DNA of 64,000 nt from Armatimonadetes bacterium Uphvl-Ar1. Its GTDB lineage: Bacteria; Armatimonadota; Fimbriimonadia; Fimbriimonadales; Fimbriimonadaceae. This document shows positions 22,345 through 54,456 of the stretch, one piece after another; within the stretch, counting starts at the first letter, position 1, and every line of letters begins with the position of its first letter. The stretch covers positions 1,302,001 to 1,366,000 of the forward strand of contig CP021423.1 of assembly GCA_002162075.1 (NCBI GenBank), given 5' to 3'. The notes beneath the pieces are model-generated. The model made no database searches, was not told the DNA's origin, and saw only the letters and a program-made list of their open reading frames with translations. The translations under genes were made by a program, and so were the position numbers.

Positions 22345-24270
22345 TTGAAAGGAATTCGATACATTGCTCTGGTCTCGGTTGCGTTCATCCTCGTAATCTT
22401 GCTCCTCAACACGGTGCCCAATACCGCTGCCTTTGGTATGAAGGCCCCAGAGTCACTGACGGTAAGTCAATTCAAAACCGAAGTTGCAACCAATCAAATC
22501 AAACCAGACATTGACTGGCAACTTGACACAATCAGTGGAGAAAAGAAAACCGGAACGAAATTCGTCGTAAAGGCCTACGATCAGCAGTCTCCCGCTGCTG
22601 CCGATCTCATCAAATTCCTCGAAGAAAACAAAGTCAATACCAAGCTACTGGGCCCACCAGCCGGTGCGCAAATCGCTGGAGCCTTACTCTTCATTGTCCC
22701 ATTCCTCCTCCTGATCGGTTTCTTCTGGTTCTTCATGAGCCGTCAAGCTCAAGCCAATGGCAATCAAGCCATGAGTTTTGGTCGATCCCGAGCGCGCCGG
22801 GCCGGAGAGAACACCCCCAAAGTCACGTTCGATGATGTTGCCGGAATCGATGAAGCCAAAGAAGAACTCTTCGAAGTCGTTGACTTCTTGAAGTCAACTA
22901 AGAAGTATGTCGCCCTCGGAGCAAAAATCCCGAAGGGCATCCTCATGATTGGACCTCCGGGTGTCGGAAAAACCCACCTCGCCCGAGCCATCGCCGGAGA
23001 AGCTGGAGTCCCCTTCTTCCACATCTCAGGCTCCGAATTCGTTGAAATGTTTGTTGGGGTTGGGGCCGCCCGGGTTCGTGACCTCTTCGAAACCGCCAAA
23101 GCTCACCGCCCATGTCTCATCTTCGTTGATGAAATCGACGCCGTAGGTCGCCAGCGAGGAACCGGAGTCGGAGGCGGCAACGACGAACGCGAGCAAACCC
23201 TCAACCAACTTCTCGTCGAAATGGACGGTTTTGAAACCAACTCCGGAGTCGTCATTATCGCCGCAACTAACCGCGCCGATGTCCTAGATGAAGCCCTTCT
23301 CCGTCCCGGACGATTTGATCGCAAGATCATGGTCGATGCCCCCGATCTTGATGGGCGCCACGCCATTCTCAACATTCACGCAAAAGGCAAACCCCTCGCC
23401 GCCGATGTAGACCTTCGCGCTCTCGCCAAACGATCGCCTGGTTTCACTGGTGCCGACCTGGCCAACATCCTCAACGAAGCCGCCCTTCTCGCCGCACGGC
23501 GAAGTCATCCGAAAATTAACCAAGATGATATGGAAGAGGCCCTCGACCGCGTCATCGCGGGACCAGCTCGCAAAAGCCGCGTGATGGACGAAAAAGAGCG
23601 CAAGATTACGGCGTACCACGAAGCTGGCCACGCTCTCGTCGGTGAATTACTTGAATTCAGCGACCCTGTTCACAAGGTCACAATTCTTCCACGTGGAATG
23701 TCCCTTGGTTCAACCTGGCAACTCCCCGAAACCGATAGCTACCACACCTCACGCCAAGAGCTGTACGACGATATCAGCGTCCTCCTCTCCGGCCTCCTTG
23801 CTGAAGAAATCGTTTTCGGCGAACGCTGGACAGGTGCCTCCAACGATCTTGAACGCGTGACTCGCATCGCCCGCGCTATGATCACCCGATTTGGCATGAG
23901 CGAAAAGCTCGGCACCCTCGCAATCGGACGCAATGTCAGCAATCCGTTCCTCGGGCGCGAAATGCAATCCGACCGCGATTACAGTGAAGACATCGCGCGT
24001 CAAATCGACGAAGAAGTCCGCCGAATTGTTGACATGTGCAGCACTCGAGCCCGGAATATCATTGAAGAAAATCGCGAGAAACTTGATGCCATTTCCGAGG
24101 CCCTCCTCGAACGAGAAACCCTCGACCGAGAAGACTTCCTGATCATCATGTCCGGCCAATCACTGCCACCGCGAGCTGAGCCGACAATCCCACCTCCGAG
24201 CGCAAATGAAGGCGAGAATAAGCCGAATGATTCAATGAATCCGGGCAAGCTCGAACCAGGTCCGGCTTAA
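22345..24270 (+). CDS. ftsH: ATP-dependent zinc metalloprotease FtsH
   Basis: A 641-residue membrane AAA+ protease. It has two transmembrane segments (about residues 5-25 and 110-130), an AAA domain with Walker A GPPGVGKT (203-210), Walker [12 protein letters not shown], the second region of homology [20 protein letters not shown], and the M41 protease domain with the zinc motif HEAGH (His425, Glu426, His429). The C-terminal tail is Pro/Asn-rich. FtsH degrades membrane and regulatory proteins. The start is TTG at 22345 with TAGGAA upstream; starting later would remove the first membrane helix. It follows tilS. Confidence 0.95.
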
Positions 24271-24348: not shown

Positions 24349-24696
24349 ATGAGCGTTGCCGAACTCTACGAAACCGGATTTCAAGCCCGCTGTGACGGGA
24401 AATACGGATACGCCAAAATGATGTTCGAAAGCATTTTGGGACAAGAACCGAACCACGCCGACGCTCAGTGGCAAATCGGACTCATTCAAGGCTTTGAAGG
24501 CGACTTCGATGGCAGTATTGCCACCCTCCAAAAAGTCGTCGACGCAAACCCTTCCCACATCCATGCCCGCTATGACCTCGGCATGACTCAAATGATGCTT
24601 GGAATGGATGAAGAAGCCTGTGCGCACTTCCACGAAGTCCTCCGCCAAGACCCAAGCCACGAAAAAGCAAAACAGCAAATCGCATACTGCGGTTAA
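24349..24696 (+). CDS. Small TPR-repeat protein
   Basis: A 115-residue protein made almost wholly of tetratricopeptide repeats: YETGFQARCDGKYGYAKMMF, PNHADAQWQIGLIQGFEGDF and PSHIHARYDLGMTQMMLGM, each with the alternating small/large residue pattern of TPRs. It has no signal peptide and is likely a cytoplasmic adaptor. A TATAGT box at about 24325-24330 in the gap after ftsH could be its -10 element, though no convincing -35 was found. Partners are unknown. Confidence 0.7.
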   Translation: MSVAELYETGFQARCDGKYGYAKMMFESILGQEPNHADAQWQIGLIQGFEGDFDGSIATLQKVVDANPSHIHARYDLGMTQMMLGMDEEACAHFHEVLRQDPSHEKAKQQIAYCG

Positions 24697-24711: not shown

Positions 24712-27015
24712 GTGACCGGGAATTCGAACCCCCTACTGAGAGCGACTGTGCCCCTTTGGGCCGCAATCTTGCTCATCGTCCTCCTCCCCGGAATCATCTT
24801 TGCCCCCCCACTTCTTTCCGGAAAAACCATTGGCCCGTTCGATCAGATGGCTTCCATGATTCCCGGGCGAGAACAATCCAATCAAACGAGATCATGGGAC
24901 ATTCTGCAAGCTGACGGAGCCCTCCAATTCTACGGCTGGCGTGACCTCGTTTTCGAAGCTCATCGAACGGGCAAACAGCCCTTTTGGAACCCCTACCAAC
25001 TCGCCGGAACCCCACTTCTTGCAAACTCCCAATCTGCTGGCTACTATCCACTTCATGTCCTGATCGGAAAACTCGGCATCCCAACCGGAACCGCGATCGT
25101 CTTTCTCGCCTGGCTACACCTCTCGGTCGCTGGACTTGGACTCTTCGCCCTTGCTCGCCGCCTTGGTGCCGGAATCGAAGGCGCAATTCTCGGTGCCGTC
25201 GGACTTGCTCTCAGTCCATTTGCCATCAGTTGGTCCGCCCTCGCAAGCGTCATGACAACCTGCGCTTGGATTCCCGTCCTCCTTGCCGCCCAACTTGCCC
25301 TCATCCAACGACCTTCGTGGCGCACTGCTTTGGCAGTGACCGGCTCGGCAGTCATGCTCCTCACCGGAGGGCACCTCCAATTCGTTTTTTATGGCCTGGT
25401 CGCCTGGCTCATTTTCACTCCCATCGCGTTTTTCACCCAGCCCGAAAAACCTAAACCCACTTTCTCGGCCCTCGCCTCATTTTTAGCCGTTGGAATCGCG
25501 GGATTCGCCGCTCTCCCTCAAATCAACCCTGCTCTCGAATTCAGCAAGCAATCCCACCGACAATCCGTCGCTTCCGCCGAAGGCTACAAAGCCTATCAAT
25601 CCTCCGCCATCAAACCATATGAATTTCTTGGCTTCCTTGCCCCAGGTTTCATGGGAACGCCCGGCATCCCCGATAACCCTAGCACCGAAGAAAACATCCC
25701 CTCGACCTGGAACATGTACGCCAAACCCGGTGGCAACTATGCCGAATCAGCAATCTGGCTTGGCGTTCCTATCGTCATGGGTATCTGCATGCTCCGCCGA
25801 CGGCAAAACTGGCGCGAACTCTCTCCGGTCATCGCGGTTGCGTTAGCTGGACTCCTCCTCGCTCTCGGAACCCCGCTCGCTCAGCTTCTCTACTTCGGCA
25901 TTCCTGGTTTCTCCGCAACGGGGTCGCCCGGACGCGCTGCCATCATCTTCGTCCTCGCCGCCTGCACCCTCGCCGCTGTTGCGATCCCCAAAACCCCATC
26001 CGACTCAAATCCCACCGAAAAAGCCTACGCCTACTTTGGACTCCTCGGGGTTGCCATCCTCACGATCCTCGCCTCAACCCGTCTCGGCGGAATCGAATCA
26101 TGGGTCGGCCTTGACCTCAACCCCATCATCGCTCGCCGAACCACCGATACTCTCCCAATTCTTGTCGCAAGTCTCGTTTGCGCCGCCGGAGCATGGTTCG
26201 CCTGGGCAAAACTCGGCTGGCACGCACTCGGTCTAGCCGCTGCCCTGATTGCTCACCTCATCGTCGCACAAACTCAAATCCTTCCGTTCGGCAATCCTCC
26301 CAAACCCCAACTACCGGAATCTCCCAACCAACGAGTCGCATTCGTCAACCAAAAATGGGATTTCTTCGCCCCGCCCGAAAGCGGAATCATGCCCCCCAAT
26401 TTCGCAACCACCGCGCGAATTATGGATATCGGCGGCTATGACTCCCTGATAGCTCTCTCTACTGTCGAACTTCTCAAATCCATCAACGCCGGACAAGACG
26501 CCGCCCCACCAACGAACGGCAACATGATGTTCGTCAAGCCGTCGCTCGATCCCGCCTCCCTCAGCGAAGCCGGAGTCACCCGCGTTTACAGCAAACTCGG
26601 CGTAGATAACCTCACTCAAACCGACCAAATCGGCGACATCCGCGTCTACGATCTTGCCGGCCCCGGTCTTTTCACTCCAAGCACTGTAACTATCCGAAAT
26701 ATAACCACAGAAGGCTTCACTGTTTCATTAGCTGAGCCAGGAAAATTTGTTGCAAGGTTCCGAAATCTTCCAGGTTGGGAAATGACAGATAACGGAAGCG
26801 ACTTTTCTAAAGTAAGCGGAGGCCAATGGATTGAACTTGAAACATTGGATAAAGCACTCCTGGCCGAATTTCGCTACTCTCCCCCCGGATACCTCCCATG
26901 GCCCTGGCTCCCCTCACTCCTCGCCCTCTTGGCCCTCATCAGTGCCGCCATCCCTAACAAATCACTCGAATTTCCCGTAGACTCTGTAGAAGAAAACGAA
27001 CCTGAAGAAGTATGA
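24712..27015 (+). CDS. YfhO-like polytopic membrane protein
   Basis: A 767-residue inner-membrane protein with about twelve hydrophobic segments and an extended soluble C-terminal part before a last membrane helix (PWPWLPSLLALLALISAA). The luminal/external loop motifs QFYGWRDLVFEAHRTGKQPFWNPY and TPLLANSQSAGYYPLH match YfhO/GT-C-like membrane proteins linked to lipid or teichoic-acid glycosylation. Enzymatic activity is not established by the sequence. The GTG at 24712 is the likely start. It overlaps clpS in ATGA, so translation of clpS is coupled to it. Confidence 0.75.
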   Translation: MTGNSNPLLRATVPLWAAILLIVLLPGIIFAPPLLSGKTIGPFDQMASMIPGREQSNQTRSWDILQADGALQFYGWRDLVFEAHRTGKQPFWNPYQLAGTPLLANSQSAGYYPLHVLIGKLGIPTGTAIVFLAWLHLSVAGLGLFALARRLGAGIEGAILGAVGLALSPFAISWSALASVMTTCAWIPVLLAAQLALIQRPSWRTALAVTGSAVMLLTGGHLQFVFYGLVAWLIFTPIAFFTQPEKPKPTFSALASFLAVGIAGFAALPQINPALEFSKQSHRQSVASAEGYKAYQSSAIKPYEFLGFLAPGFMGTPGIPDNPSTEENIPSTWNMYAKPGGNYAESAIWLGVPIVMGICMLRRRQNWRELSPVIAVALAGLLLALGTPLAQLLYFGIPGFSATGSPGRAAIIFVLAACTLAAVAIPKTPSDSNPTEKAYAYFGLLGVAILTILASTRLGGIESWVGLDLNPIIARRTTDTLPILVASLVCAAGAWFAWAKLGWHALGLAAALIAHLIVAQTQILPFGNPPKPQLPESPNQRVAFVNQKWDFFAPPESGIMPPNFATTARIMDIGGYDSLIALSTVELLKSINAGQDAAPPTNGNMMFVKPSLDPASLSEAGVTRVYSKLGVDNLTQTDQIGDIRVYDLAGPGLFTPSTVTIRNITTEGFTVSLAEPGKFVARFRNLPGWEMTDNGSDFSKVSGGQWIELETLDKALLAEFRYSPPGYLPWPWLPSLLALLALISAAIPNKSLEFPVDSVEENEPEEV

Positions 27016-27299
27016 GCGCCATCCCGCAGATCACCCGCGAAACGGATTCCCAAACCCAAACGCGCCGATACCGAACCATCATTTTCAACAATGACCACAC
27101 CCCCATGGATGTCGTGGTCATGATCATCATGCGCGCCACGCATTGCGACGCCGAAGAAGCCTACATCGAAATGTGGGAAGCCCACACCTACGGCCAAGCC
27201 AACGTCCATTTCGCATCCCTCGAAGAGTGCGAAACCGCCGCCAACCTCATCGCAAGCGTTGGAATCAAAACGGAGGTCAAACCCGAATGGACCGACTAA
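27012..27299 (+). CDS. clpS: ATP-dependent Clp protease adaptor ClpS (first copy)
   Basis: A 95-residue ClpS. The N-degron pocket motif is nearly complete: FNNDHTPMDVVV in place of the usual VNDDYTPM, and the pocket His is kept in EAHTYGQANV. The C-terminal part (ECETAANLIASVGIKTEV) fits the family fold. ClpS brings proteins with bulky N-terminal residues to ClpA or ClpC. It overlaps the YfhO-like gene by 4 bp and is followed by a divergent paralog. No clpA/clpC gene is in the window. Confidence 0.85.
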   Translation: MSAIPQITRETDSQTQTRRYRTIIFNNDHTPMDVVVMIIMRATHCDAEEAYIEMWEAHTYGQANVHFASLEECETAANLIASVGIKTEVKPEWTD

Positions 27300-27364
27300 T
27301 TGACAGGCAACCTGCTGGGGTTCTTTTGCCGTATTCGGCTAAAAAGACTTACTGGTTCGATTTT

Positions 27365-27400
27365 CCCTCCCCTGATGGGGAGGGGAAGGGGTGGGGAGAT
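27365..27400 (+). repeat. Palindrome plus G-quadruplex repeat, copy A
   Basis: A short inverted repeat CCCTCCCC-TGAT-GGGGAGGG runs into a G-rich tail, giving four G4 runs with 1-2 nt between them (27377-27396). Near-identical copies occur at 54394-54430 and, in a variant form, at 57217-57264. It lies between the two clpS genes. Confidence 0.85.
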
Positions 27401-27493
27401 CACGAGCAAAGATTTTCGCTCATCAACGACCAATGCATGCAAGTAGTCACCGCACTGGAACCTAACTTCGGTAAAGTCAGCCACTCCGCTGTA

Positions 27494-27808
27494 ATGTCCC
27501 AAACGTGGGCTGCAATCGAAACCCCGGTTCTCGATCCATCAACCGACCAATCAAACTTCGCCAAGAACGACCGAGGATGGATGGTCACGGTTTACAACAA
27601 CGATTACAACACCGACATCGAAGTCATCGCCATCCTCATGATTGCGACCAAGTGCGATGCCGAAGAAGCCTCAATCGAAACCTGGGAAATAGACAAGCTC
27701 GGACAGTCAATCGTCCATCGAGCCTCCCAAAAAGAGTGTGAAGAAGCCGCCCAGATAATTGCCACCATTGGCATCCGCGTTGAAGCCGAACCGGACCCCC
27801 TCGCCTAA
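27494..27808 (+). CDS. Divergent ClpS-like adaptor (second copy)
   Basis: A 104-residue ClpS paralog (from the ATG at 27494): MVTVYNNDYNTDIEVIAILM and CDAEEASIETWEIDKLG align with ClpS, as does ECEEAAQIIATIGIRVEAEP. It has lost key pocket residues: the TPM after the acidic pair reads NTD, and the pocket His is Asp in EIDKLG. It therefore probably does not bind classical N-degrons, or binds something else. The frame is open upstream to 27143, across the G-rich repeat, but that stretch does not look like protein; the true start may be 27494 or 27437. No good ribosome-binding site is seen. Confidence 0.75.
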   Translation: MSQTWAAIETPVLDPSTDQSNFAKNDRGWMVTVYNNDYNTDIEVIAILMIATKCDAEEASIETWEIDKLGQSIVHRASQKECEEAAQIIATIGIRVEAEPDPLA

Positions 27809-53481: not shown

Positions 53482-54456
53482 ATGAACGCGCTGAAAGTAA
53501 CCGTCCTCCTCGCCGGACTCACCGGACTCTTTGTCCTTATGGGTAACGCCATCGGTGGAACCTCCGGAATGGTCATTGCCTTCGCCATCGCCGTCGTCAT
53601 GAACGTCGGTGCCTACTGGTTTAGCGACAAACTGGCAATCAAAATGTCCCGCGCCGTCGAAGTCTCTCCGCAGCAAGCTCCCGACCTGCACCGCATGGTC
53701 GAAGTCCTCGCCGAGCGCGCAGAAATCCCCAAGCCCAAGGTCTATATCGTCAACGACCCCAGCCCCAACGCGTTTGCCACTGGTCGCAACCCCGCAAACG
53801 CTGCCGTTGCTGTCAACACTGGACTCATGAATCTCCTCACGCCCGATGAAGTCTTTGGTGTTGTCGCTCACGAAATCGCCCACATCAAAAATCGCGACAC
53901 CCTCACGATGACCGTCGTCGCAACCATCGCTGGTGCCATCACAATGCTCGCCCAATTCGCCCAAATTGCCGCAATCTTTGGAGGTGTTGGTCGCTCGGAC
54001 GACGGTGATGGCCCCAACCCCATCGGTCTTCTCATCATGGCCTTTGTCGCCCCGTTCGCCGCCATGATCATGCAACTTGCCGTGTCCCGCGCCCGTGAAT
54101 TCGAAGCCGACAAGTGGGGTGCTAAATTCGCCGGAACTCCTGATGGCCTCAGCAATGCCCTCCTCAAATTGGAGCGAGGCACCACCGTCATCCCGACTCG
54201 AACCGACCCGGCCCACGCCCCGCTCTATATCGTCAACCCCCTCAAAGGCCACGGCGGATTCAGCAAACTCTTCATGACCCACCCCCGATCGAAGAACGCG
54301 TCGCCAAACTCCGCGCTCTGTGAGGAAGAGGGTCATAGGTTACTTTCTAAGCACCGACGGATATTGTCCAGGCTGGCCAATAAAGGGTGTCAGCTCCCTC
54401 CCCTGATGGGAGGGGAAGGGGTGGGGAGACACTTCAAAAGAAATAGGCTGCGATGA
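53482..54456 (+). CDS. htpX: HtpX-type M48 membrane metalloprotease, C-terminus altered by one missing base
   Basis: The observed frame encodes 324 residues. It has two N-terminal membrane helices, NDPSPNAFATGRNPANAAVAV, the zinc motif VVAHEIAHIKNRD, two further membrane segments and SRAREFEADKWGAKFAG with the third zinc ligand, ending in GGFSKLFMTHP, after which the reading becomes meaningless. Adding one C to CCCCC at 54282-54286 restores HPPIEERVAKLRAL and a stop at 54323, the usual HtpX end (about 280 residues). HtpX degrades misfolded membrane proteins. It lies 48 bp after the manganese aptamer, and a terminator in between controls it. Confidence 0.88.
   Translation: MNALKVTVLLAGLTGLFVLMGNAIGGTSGMVIAFAIAVVMNVGAYWFSDKLAIKMSRAVEVSPQQAPDLHRMVEVLAERAEIPKPKVYIVNDPSPNAFATGRNPANAAVAVNTGLMNLLTPDEVFGVVAHEIAHIKNRDTLTMTVVATIAGAITMLAQFAQIAAIFGGVGRSDDGDGPNPIGLLIMAFVAPFAAMIMQLAVSRAREFEADKWGAKFAGTPDGLSNALLKLERGTTVIPTRTDPAHAPLYIVNPLKGHGGFSKLFMTHPRSKNASPNSALCEEEGHRLLSKHRRILSRLANKGCQLPPLMGGEGVGRHFKRNRLR
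54394..54430 (+). repeat. Palindrome plus G-quadruplex repeat, copy B
   Basis: Shares CCCTCCCCTGATGGG, AGGGGAAGGGGTGGGGAGA with copy A at 27365, differing by one G; four G3/G4 runs at 54408-54427. It lies downstream of the corrected htpX stop. Confidence 0.85.

Follow-up and report, generated by a model that had tools for sequence, protein, structure and literature searches.

Conserved overlapping clpS genes in Armatimonadota, with altered N-degron pocket residues in the second copy

Paired ClpS adaptors have been described in other bacteria. According to the available excerpts of PMC7966870, cyanobacterial ClpS1 and ClpS2 both act with ClpC and differ in their residue preferences, ClpS2 binding L, F, Y, V and I. 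In Leptospira interrogans, as far as the excerpts of PMC12493166 go, ClpS1 (LIC11356) shows His-to-Asp and Met40-to-Tyr replacements, has lost Lys84 and is accompanied by a second ClpS; it binds ClpA through its N-domain with a dissociation constant of 0.44 uM and inhibits both ClpA ATPase and SsrA degradation. Related natural variants are, on these partial accounts, already known. Here we describe a tandem pair of ClpS genes in a 64,000-nucleotide stretch (hereafter the window, to which all coordinates refer) of Armatimonadetes bacterium Uphvl-Ar1, family Fimbriimonadaceae (assembly GCA_002162075.1, contig CP021423.1, positions 1,302,001 to 1,366,000, forward strand). Compared by published description, the cyanobacterial genes resemble this pair in being two paralogues (PMC7966870, in part), and Leptospira ClpS1 resembles the second window copy in having Asp for His and no Lys84, but its clpS genes are not adjacent and it was studied with ClpA (both from the excerpts of PMC12493166). 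Among the literature matches listed, no open-licence paper named ClpS and Armatimonadota together, and no title there described such a pair. On balance, we favor the view that the two genes are a conserved overlapping pair making two N-degron adaptors for ClpC-ClpP, with altered specificity in ClpS2; N-degron binding, ClpC binding and a division of labor are inferred here from the overlap of the genes, the partner genes present, the pocket letters, the predicted fold and conservation under purifying selection. The two genes are as follows.

clpS1, 27012..27299, + strand: ClpS-type adaptor of 95 residues; pocket E. coli-like (N34 D36 T38 P39 M40 V43 M62 H66).
clpS2, 27287..27808, + strand: most likely 173 residues, its ATG overlapping the last clpS1 codons; an alternative start at 27437 would give 123 residues.

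A preliminary description made from the letters alone had called these tandem ClpS genes, and we agree: both pass the PF02617 gathering cut-off of 23 bits (55.2 for ClpS1, 37.1 for ClpS2), and a genome-wide Pfam search yields no third match. The motifs it quoted are exact (NNDHTPM and EAHTYG in ClpS1, NNDYNTD and EIDKLG in ClpS2). The clpS2 open frame spans 27143-27808 with the ClpS domain at about 27566-27796, and the 173-residue form matches one Pfam family only, ClpS, at E up to 1. Neither copy reaches the NCBIfam ClpS equivalogs PRK00033 and PRK13019 (best 37.8 vs 149 for ClpS1, 14.3 vs 117 for ClpS2). The ClpS2 domain scores 139.6 bits with profile A1, a ClpS2 profile; the underlying alignments A1, A2 and A3 (19, 19 and 18 rows) were hand-picked out of larger sets, and results of the A1-profile search, the phylum-wide genome survey and the own-genome Clp_N search are given throughout as found among the matches listed.

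The pocket was defined as E. coli positions 32, 33, 34, 35, 36, 38, 39, 40, 43, 62, 65 and 66, numbered from an alignment to PDB entries. Here window ClpS1 reads IFNNDTPMVMAH and window ClpS2 VYNNDNTDVTID; of the canonical alpha-amino contacts Asn34, Asp36 and His66, ClpS1 has all three, whereas ClpS2 has Asn34, Asp36 and Asp66 and so departs from the canonical set. Across 40 pairs defined by gene order (67 positions compared, 26-46 and 54-99), the first copies have His (36), Asp (2) or Glu (2) at position 66 and the second have Asp (31) or His (9) there, while position 65 is Ala in every ClpS1 and Ile (33) or Val (7) in ClpS2. The second copies further have Tyr, Trp or Phe at 40 in 34 cases, Thr (27) or Ala (13) at 62, Asn (23) or Asp (17) at 34, N35, N38 and V43 in all 40, and T39 in 38; W63, E64, H74 and C81 are common to ClpS1 and ClpS2. 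An Asp gatekeeper at 40 occurs only in the window ClpS2 and that of the nearest species, G006, among the 40 second copies, so the specificity of the window ClpS2 may have shifted further still. The full E. coli-like set N34 D36 T38 M40 V43 M62 H66 is found in 8/77 distinct ClpS1, the window copy and five other genus members included, and in 0/100 ClpS2; L208, a ClpS1 with an E. coli-like pocket that our motif-based classing put among the "other" sequences, would be a ninth. The preliminary description called the ClpS2 pocket broken for want of TPM and His, but most ClpS1 also lack TPM (Met40 in 9 of 40; Phe 15, Tyr 7), and Asp66 is the usual state of ClpS2 and is found in human UBR1/UBR2 as well as, in the excerpts of PMC12493166, Leptospira ClpS1. 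ClpS2 is also the better-conserved copy, and its pocket is better called substituted than broken.

In the favored reading, ClpS1 of the genus would use an E. coli-type pocket and ClpS2 a UBR-type one, with Asp66 for His, a mostly aromatic residue 40 for the gatekeeper Met, Thr/Ala62 and Ile/Val65. Asp66 would take over from His in gripping the free alpha-amino group, loss of Met40 would alter which first residues fit, and the two copies would divide between them the N-terminal residues made by Aat or by proteases.

The pair is widespread among relatives. PF02617 matches occur in 56 of 61 genomes (our own and 60 relatives), and two matches occur in 33 of 37 own-family genomes (8/8 in the genus), in the single f3 genome and in 6 of 8 f5 genomes, and in none of the 14 f2 genomes or the one f4 genome; profile A1 raises f5 to 8/8. 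All 40 Pfam pairs are adjacent and on the same strand, the first copy being interrupted in G052. A search with a ClpS2 profile gave 80 named loci, the majority under Armatimonadota names, for example Fimbriimonadaceae and Chthonomonadales. One locus, L163, lies in a record titled Methanoregulaceae archaeon and holds a Fimbriimonadaceae-type ClpS2, so the assembly is likely mislabelled or mixed. Within family f2, G037 (L003/L076) stands apart: its ClpS is canonical and E. coli-like (109.6 bits), possibly acquired from outside, and it has Aat. In the remaining 10 f2 genomes with a match, ClpS is divergent and Aat was not found.

ClpS2 is under purifying selection and is better conserved than ClpS1. 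In 39 of the 40 pairs (the frameshifted ClpS1 of G052 was omitted here and from profile seeds), ClpS2 copies share a mean pairwise identity of 0.629 vs 0.539 for ClpS1, and of 741 genome pairs 631 show the greater identity in ClpS2, which bears out the conservation claimed for it in the preliminary description. The ratio of nonsynonymous to synonymous substitution rates (dN/dS) is 0.067 (ClpS1) and 0.070 (ClpS2) for our genome vs G006, the nearest pair, and 0.060 and 0.026 for G003 vs G005; remoter pairs give up to 0.144 and 0.166, or are saturated. ClpS2 is invariant at 17 of the 67 positions over 40 copies (V30, V32, N35, N38, V43, E57, A58, E61, W63, E64, G69, V73, H74, C81, I91, G92 and I93). 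The absence of the canonical His and TPM from the window ClpS2 could by itself suggest a decaying redundant duplicate, and absence or degeneration in close relatives had been named as the sign of it; the pair instead persists throughout the genus and in nearly all of the family, and the low dN/dS in the closest pairs, the invariant positions, a conservation above that of ClpS1 and the wide presence in the phylum rule out plain decay, to which we give next to no credence. The damaged copies that we encountered are ClpS1: in G052, stops or a frameshift interrupt it in a fragmented assembly. In G048 (L022/L072/L275), the NND motif and His66 of ClpS1 are gone and an intact ClpS2 lies directly downstream.

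Our genome has Aat, one ClpP match and Clp_N at two loci among the matches listed (3 of 4), in open frames of 871 and 874 residues that we take, from their letters, to be ClpC-like and ClpB-like. In 291 genomes of the phylum, ClpS occurs with Aat in 124, ClpS only in 37, Aat only in 8 and neither in 122, counts that ignore kinship. In seven genomes (G035, G087, G088, G094, G105, G115 and G209; G105 being a single contig, 99% complete), the sole Pfam ClpS is of ClpS2 type without a ClpS1 partner; profile A1 also finds one match in each, and all seven have Aat. Of the 59 genomes with a single Pfam match, ClpS sequences were read for 42, and among these G035, G077, G081 and G087 combine an Asp66 ClpS with Aat. 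These gene contents favor the idea that Asp66 ClpS proteins may be working N-recognins.

Alternatively, ClpS2 might be a regulator of ClpC rather than an N-recognin, holding the ClpC N-domain so as to compete with ClpS1 or divert ClpC, its pocket being free to vary. Positions 34, 40 and 66 do vary in the 40 ClpS2 copies while E57, E61, W63, E64, H74 and C81 are invariant, and in Leptospira ClpS1 a comparable pocket goes with inhibition of ClpA ATPase and SsrA degradation (excerpts of PMC12493166). However, the other pocket positions are fixed or vary like for like (N35, N38, V43, T39, 62, 65), and the genomes in which a ClpS2-type protein is the sole ClpS, alongside Aat, offer no ClpS1 to compete with; we consider a purely regulatory role rather unlikely. 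A role in which ClpS2 delivers a specific protein through another surface, as a ClpS1-ClpS2 heteromer or with a dedicated partner and with a vestigial N-degron pocket, could be read from the overlapping genes, the often retained neighbors and the residues W63, E64, H74 and C81 common to both copies. These four residues, however, are also present where one copy alone was found, and there is no sign of contact between the copies, so that we hold this explanation to be very doubtful. Of the three suggestions first made for ClpS2 (delivery of other substrates, blocking of ClpA/C, competition with the first copy), "other substrates" remains the best, and blocking or competition is less likely.

AlphaFold2 predicts the ClpS order of elements in both proteins, each with a core predicted local distance difference test (pLDDT) score of about 97 (ClpS1 mean 87.7; ClpS2 modelled in the 123-residue form), so the suggestion that ClpS2 keeps its overall fold stands. 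A structural search with the ClpS2 model placed Arabidopsis ClpS1 with peptide (7d34) first (Z 14.9, root-mean-square deviation 1.2 over 78), with others tied within 1, and further matches to ClpS of M. smegmatis (14.5), the malarial ClpS (14.1), E. coli ClpS (about 13), yeast Ubr1 (10.5) and ribosomal L7/L12 (9.9). The listed structural matches included yeast Ubr1 but neither of the UBR2/UBR1 entries 9wbv and 9wbw. The L7/L12 C-terminal domain was rejected as an identity for ClpS2, given Z 9.9 vs 14.9 for ClpS and a Pfam assignment to ClpS only. Plastid ClpS1 of Arabidopsis, which has the highest structural Z, Asn38 and a non-Met gatekeeper in common with ClpS2, differs in keeping His66 and in having Arg as gatekeeper; ClpS of E. 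coli and Caulobacter has the fold and Pfam family in common with ClpS2 but differs at residues 38-40, 62 and 66 and at Lys84. The predicted fold does not speak for UBR over ClpS; the likeness to human UBR1/2 lies in the letters.

That likeness begins with profile searches, in which the N-domains of human UBR2 (9.9e-7) and UBR1 (2.1e-6) are the best PDB matches of profile A1, with no bacterial ClpS below E 0.1 (best Mycolicibacterium ClpS, 0.17). UBR1/UBR2 is also the best sequence match of the ClpS1 profile (UBR1 1.6e-6, UBR2 5.4e-6), which retrieves Arabidopsis ClpS1 at 7.1e-5 and E. coli ClpS at 4.2e-4. A profile of "type A" Armatimonadota ClpS (consensus YNDDxHxFDxV...EAHTxGRA) finds E. coli ClpS (best 1.4e-11) and UBR2 (3.3e-11) about equally well. 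On these scores, UBR likeness runs through the whole ClpS set, and it is likeness to E. coli ClpS that ClpS2 has lost. In the pocket, the ClpS2 consensus (VYNNDNTYVTID) is identical to UBR1 (LFNDEHSYVTID) at 6 of 12 positions and to E. coli (LVNDDTPMVMVH) at 3; it shares Asn34, Tyr40, Val43, Thr/Ala62, Ile/Val65 and Asp66 with the UBR1/UBR2 N-domain, which differs in belonging to an E3 ligase of about 1,750 residues and in having His38, ClpS2 being small, free-standing and Asn38. With classes set by motif, ClpS2 carries UBR1 residues at a mean frequency of 0.41 in the pocket vs 0.25 elsewhere, and E. coli residues at 0.24 vs 0.20; for the ClpS1 pocket the figures are 0.35 (UBR1) and 0.40 (E. 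coli). With classes set by motifs that fix residues 65-66, a strict UBR-type set taken from UBR1/UBR2 (Asn34, Asp/Glu36, Thr/Ser39, Tyr40, Val43, Thr/Ala62, Ile/Val65, Asp66) is present in 41/100 ClpS2, 0/77 ClpS1 and 1/49 other sequences (49 of 53 "other" rows were read for this count); the window ClpS2 misses it at one position, Asp40. According to the available part of PMC4447728, the type 2 residues recognized by the ClpS-like Ubr N-domain include Ile, a residue that bacterial ClpS does not bind. A eukaryotic UBR N-recognin has UBR box and RING in the same chain, and ClpS2, at 123 or 173 residues, does not qualify.

Several observations weigh against the reading of ClpS2 as a UBR-type N-recognin. 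UBR likeness is not special to ClpS2, because the ClpS1 and type A profiles also retrieve UBR1/2, and the type A pocket carries UBR residues at higher mean frequency (UBR2 0.50, UBR1 0.46, E. coli 0.53) than that of ClpS2 (UBR2 0.40, UBR1 0.41). A loose UBR-like set is found in 64/100 ClpS2 vs 0/77 ClpS1, a contrast partly built in by the class motifs at 65-66, although gene-order classing, free of that bias, keeps the contrast at these two positions. The window ClpS2 itself matches UBR1 at 5 of 12 positions and E. coli at 3, and its Asp40 falls outside the UBR-like set. Both copies have Ala at position 84, where E. coli ClpS contacts ClpA through Lys, and two Asp66 single-ClpS genomes, G076 and G119, gave no Aat match among the 42 read. 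Because the Caulobacter His contacts the alpha-amino group (excerpts of PMC12493166), Asp66 may weaken rather than replace the role of His. Compensation between Asp34 and Asp66 had strong raw counts in 100 motif-classed ClpS2 (residues at 34/66 N/D 52, D/H 28, D/D 16, N/H 4; Fisher 1e-9), but we do not claim it because the tree yields too few independent pairs. Finally, a sister placement of UBR1/UBR2 to the ClpS1+ClpS2 clade gains no support but is not rejected either (approximately unbiased test, p 0.235).

The tree comprised 131 rows and 80 columns (45 of 46 thinned ClpS2, 40 of 58 thinned ClpS1 and 42 of 42 thinned others, classed by motif; L022 and L074 omitted), with a bootstrap that was still unsettled (0.914). 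ClpS1 and ClpS2 form one clade (100/100) on a long stem, type A falls outside it, and ClpS1 (99/96) is nested among ClpS2-type sequences with poor inner resolution. ClpS1 is thus probably, on a weakly resolved tree, a derived duplicate, and the TPM of the genus a secondary gain. His and Asp interchange at 66 in 13 steps, 4 of them within ClpS2. Type A and ClpS2-type genes occur on separate contigs in six other-family genomes (G091, G097, G100, G101, G112 and G210). In the free tree, UBR1/UBR2 stand beside the type A rows L249 and L229 (94/95, unstarred), with long branches and references of about 64 residues. No other rows in the tree set are as UBR2-like as these two (identity 38% across 64 columns); L249 (SPWAVILFNDEEHTFDDV... 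in its ClpS stretch) is the single-copy ClpS of another Armatimonadota family, in G119, where no Aat match was found.

The overlap of the two genes recurs. In 35 of 40 pairs, by raw count, the final 20 bases of clpS1 contain an ATG or GTG in frame with clpS2, at -13 in at least 23. This -13 start, 27287 in the window (overlap 27287-27299), is supplied by the codons of the Glu-Trp that ends ClpS1 (GAATGG or GAGTGG). That Glu-Trp may be kept because its codons hold the clpS2 start. A start at 27287 would make ClpS2 173 residues long, with a G-rich repeat translated in its N-terminal extension:

Dispersed G-rich repeat, 27366..27398, + strand: short inverted-repeat core, probably inside the clpS2 N-terminal extension; not conserved.

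The preliminary description noted a G-quadruplex repeat between the genes; the G-runs are real (GGGG-A-GGGG-AA-GGGG-T-GGGG), but the repeat probably sits inside the clpS2 frame, given the ATG at 27287. Its core inverted repeat CTCCCC-TGAT-GGGGAG was seen by eye, its 6-base arms being shorter than the 12-base minimum of the automated search, which reported none. At up to 3 mismatches, there are 11 copies in our genome and 15 in G006, and none in 9 other genomes searched, including the genus members G001-G005 (G007 was left out); a 19-base match with 3 mismatches also lies at 54398-54416. A G-quadruplex as conserved regulator was rejected, as G001-G005 are without the element and G006 has a different G-rich insert at this place. 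From this distribution, the putative G-quadruplex is a recent insertion rather than a conserved control element.

Upstream of the pair lie three genes, the last ending over the clpS1 ATG, which overlaps its stop codon.

ftsH, 22345..24270, + strand: AAA+ membrane protease, from Pfam; starts the order ftsH-TPR-membrane protein-clpS1-clpS2.
TPR-repeat protein, 24349..24696, + strand: from Pfam; part of the same order.
Putative membrane protein, 24712..27015, + strand: 767 residues, often near the pair in relatives; no Pfam family at curated cut-off.

The membrane protein is presumably YfhO-like. Near the pair in 35 other family members, we found the membrane protein in 28, FtsH in 20, the TPR protein in 19 and GyrA in 4 (all from the own genus), and in 8 f5 stretches the first three in 8, 2 and 2, counts bounded by the length of each stretch compared. 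Strand or order of neighbors differs in at least 2 stretches (L046, L059), and in L061 the FtsH match (29%) could be to a different AAA protein.

The ClpS pair is an ordinary duplication in origin and an informative variant. Tentatively, Armatimonadota may hold an operon-encoded two-recognin system that kept a UBR-type pocket and re-evolved an E. coli-type one from a non-canonical ancestor, covering a wider range of N-termini, and the ClpS lineage of the phylum may be one of the nearest in bacteria to the UBR1/UBR2 N-domain. ClpS2 would bear on the origin of the eukaryotic type 2 N-degron domain, a question wider than the present data, nearly all of which come from a single phylum. Being small, natural and free-standing, with a UBR-like pocket, this bacterial protein would serve structural work and the development of N-terminal amino-acid binders, and the natural series from Asp34/His66 to Asn34/Asp66 would serve dissection of alpha-amino recognition. 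What appeared to be a loss may thus be an alternative N-degron chemistry, Asp for His, as in human UBR1/UBR2.

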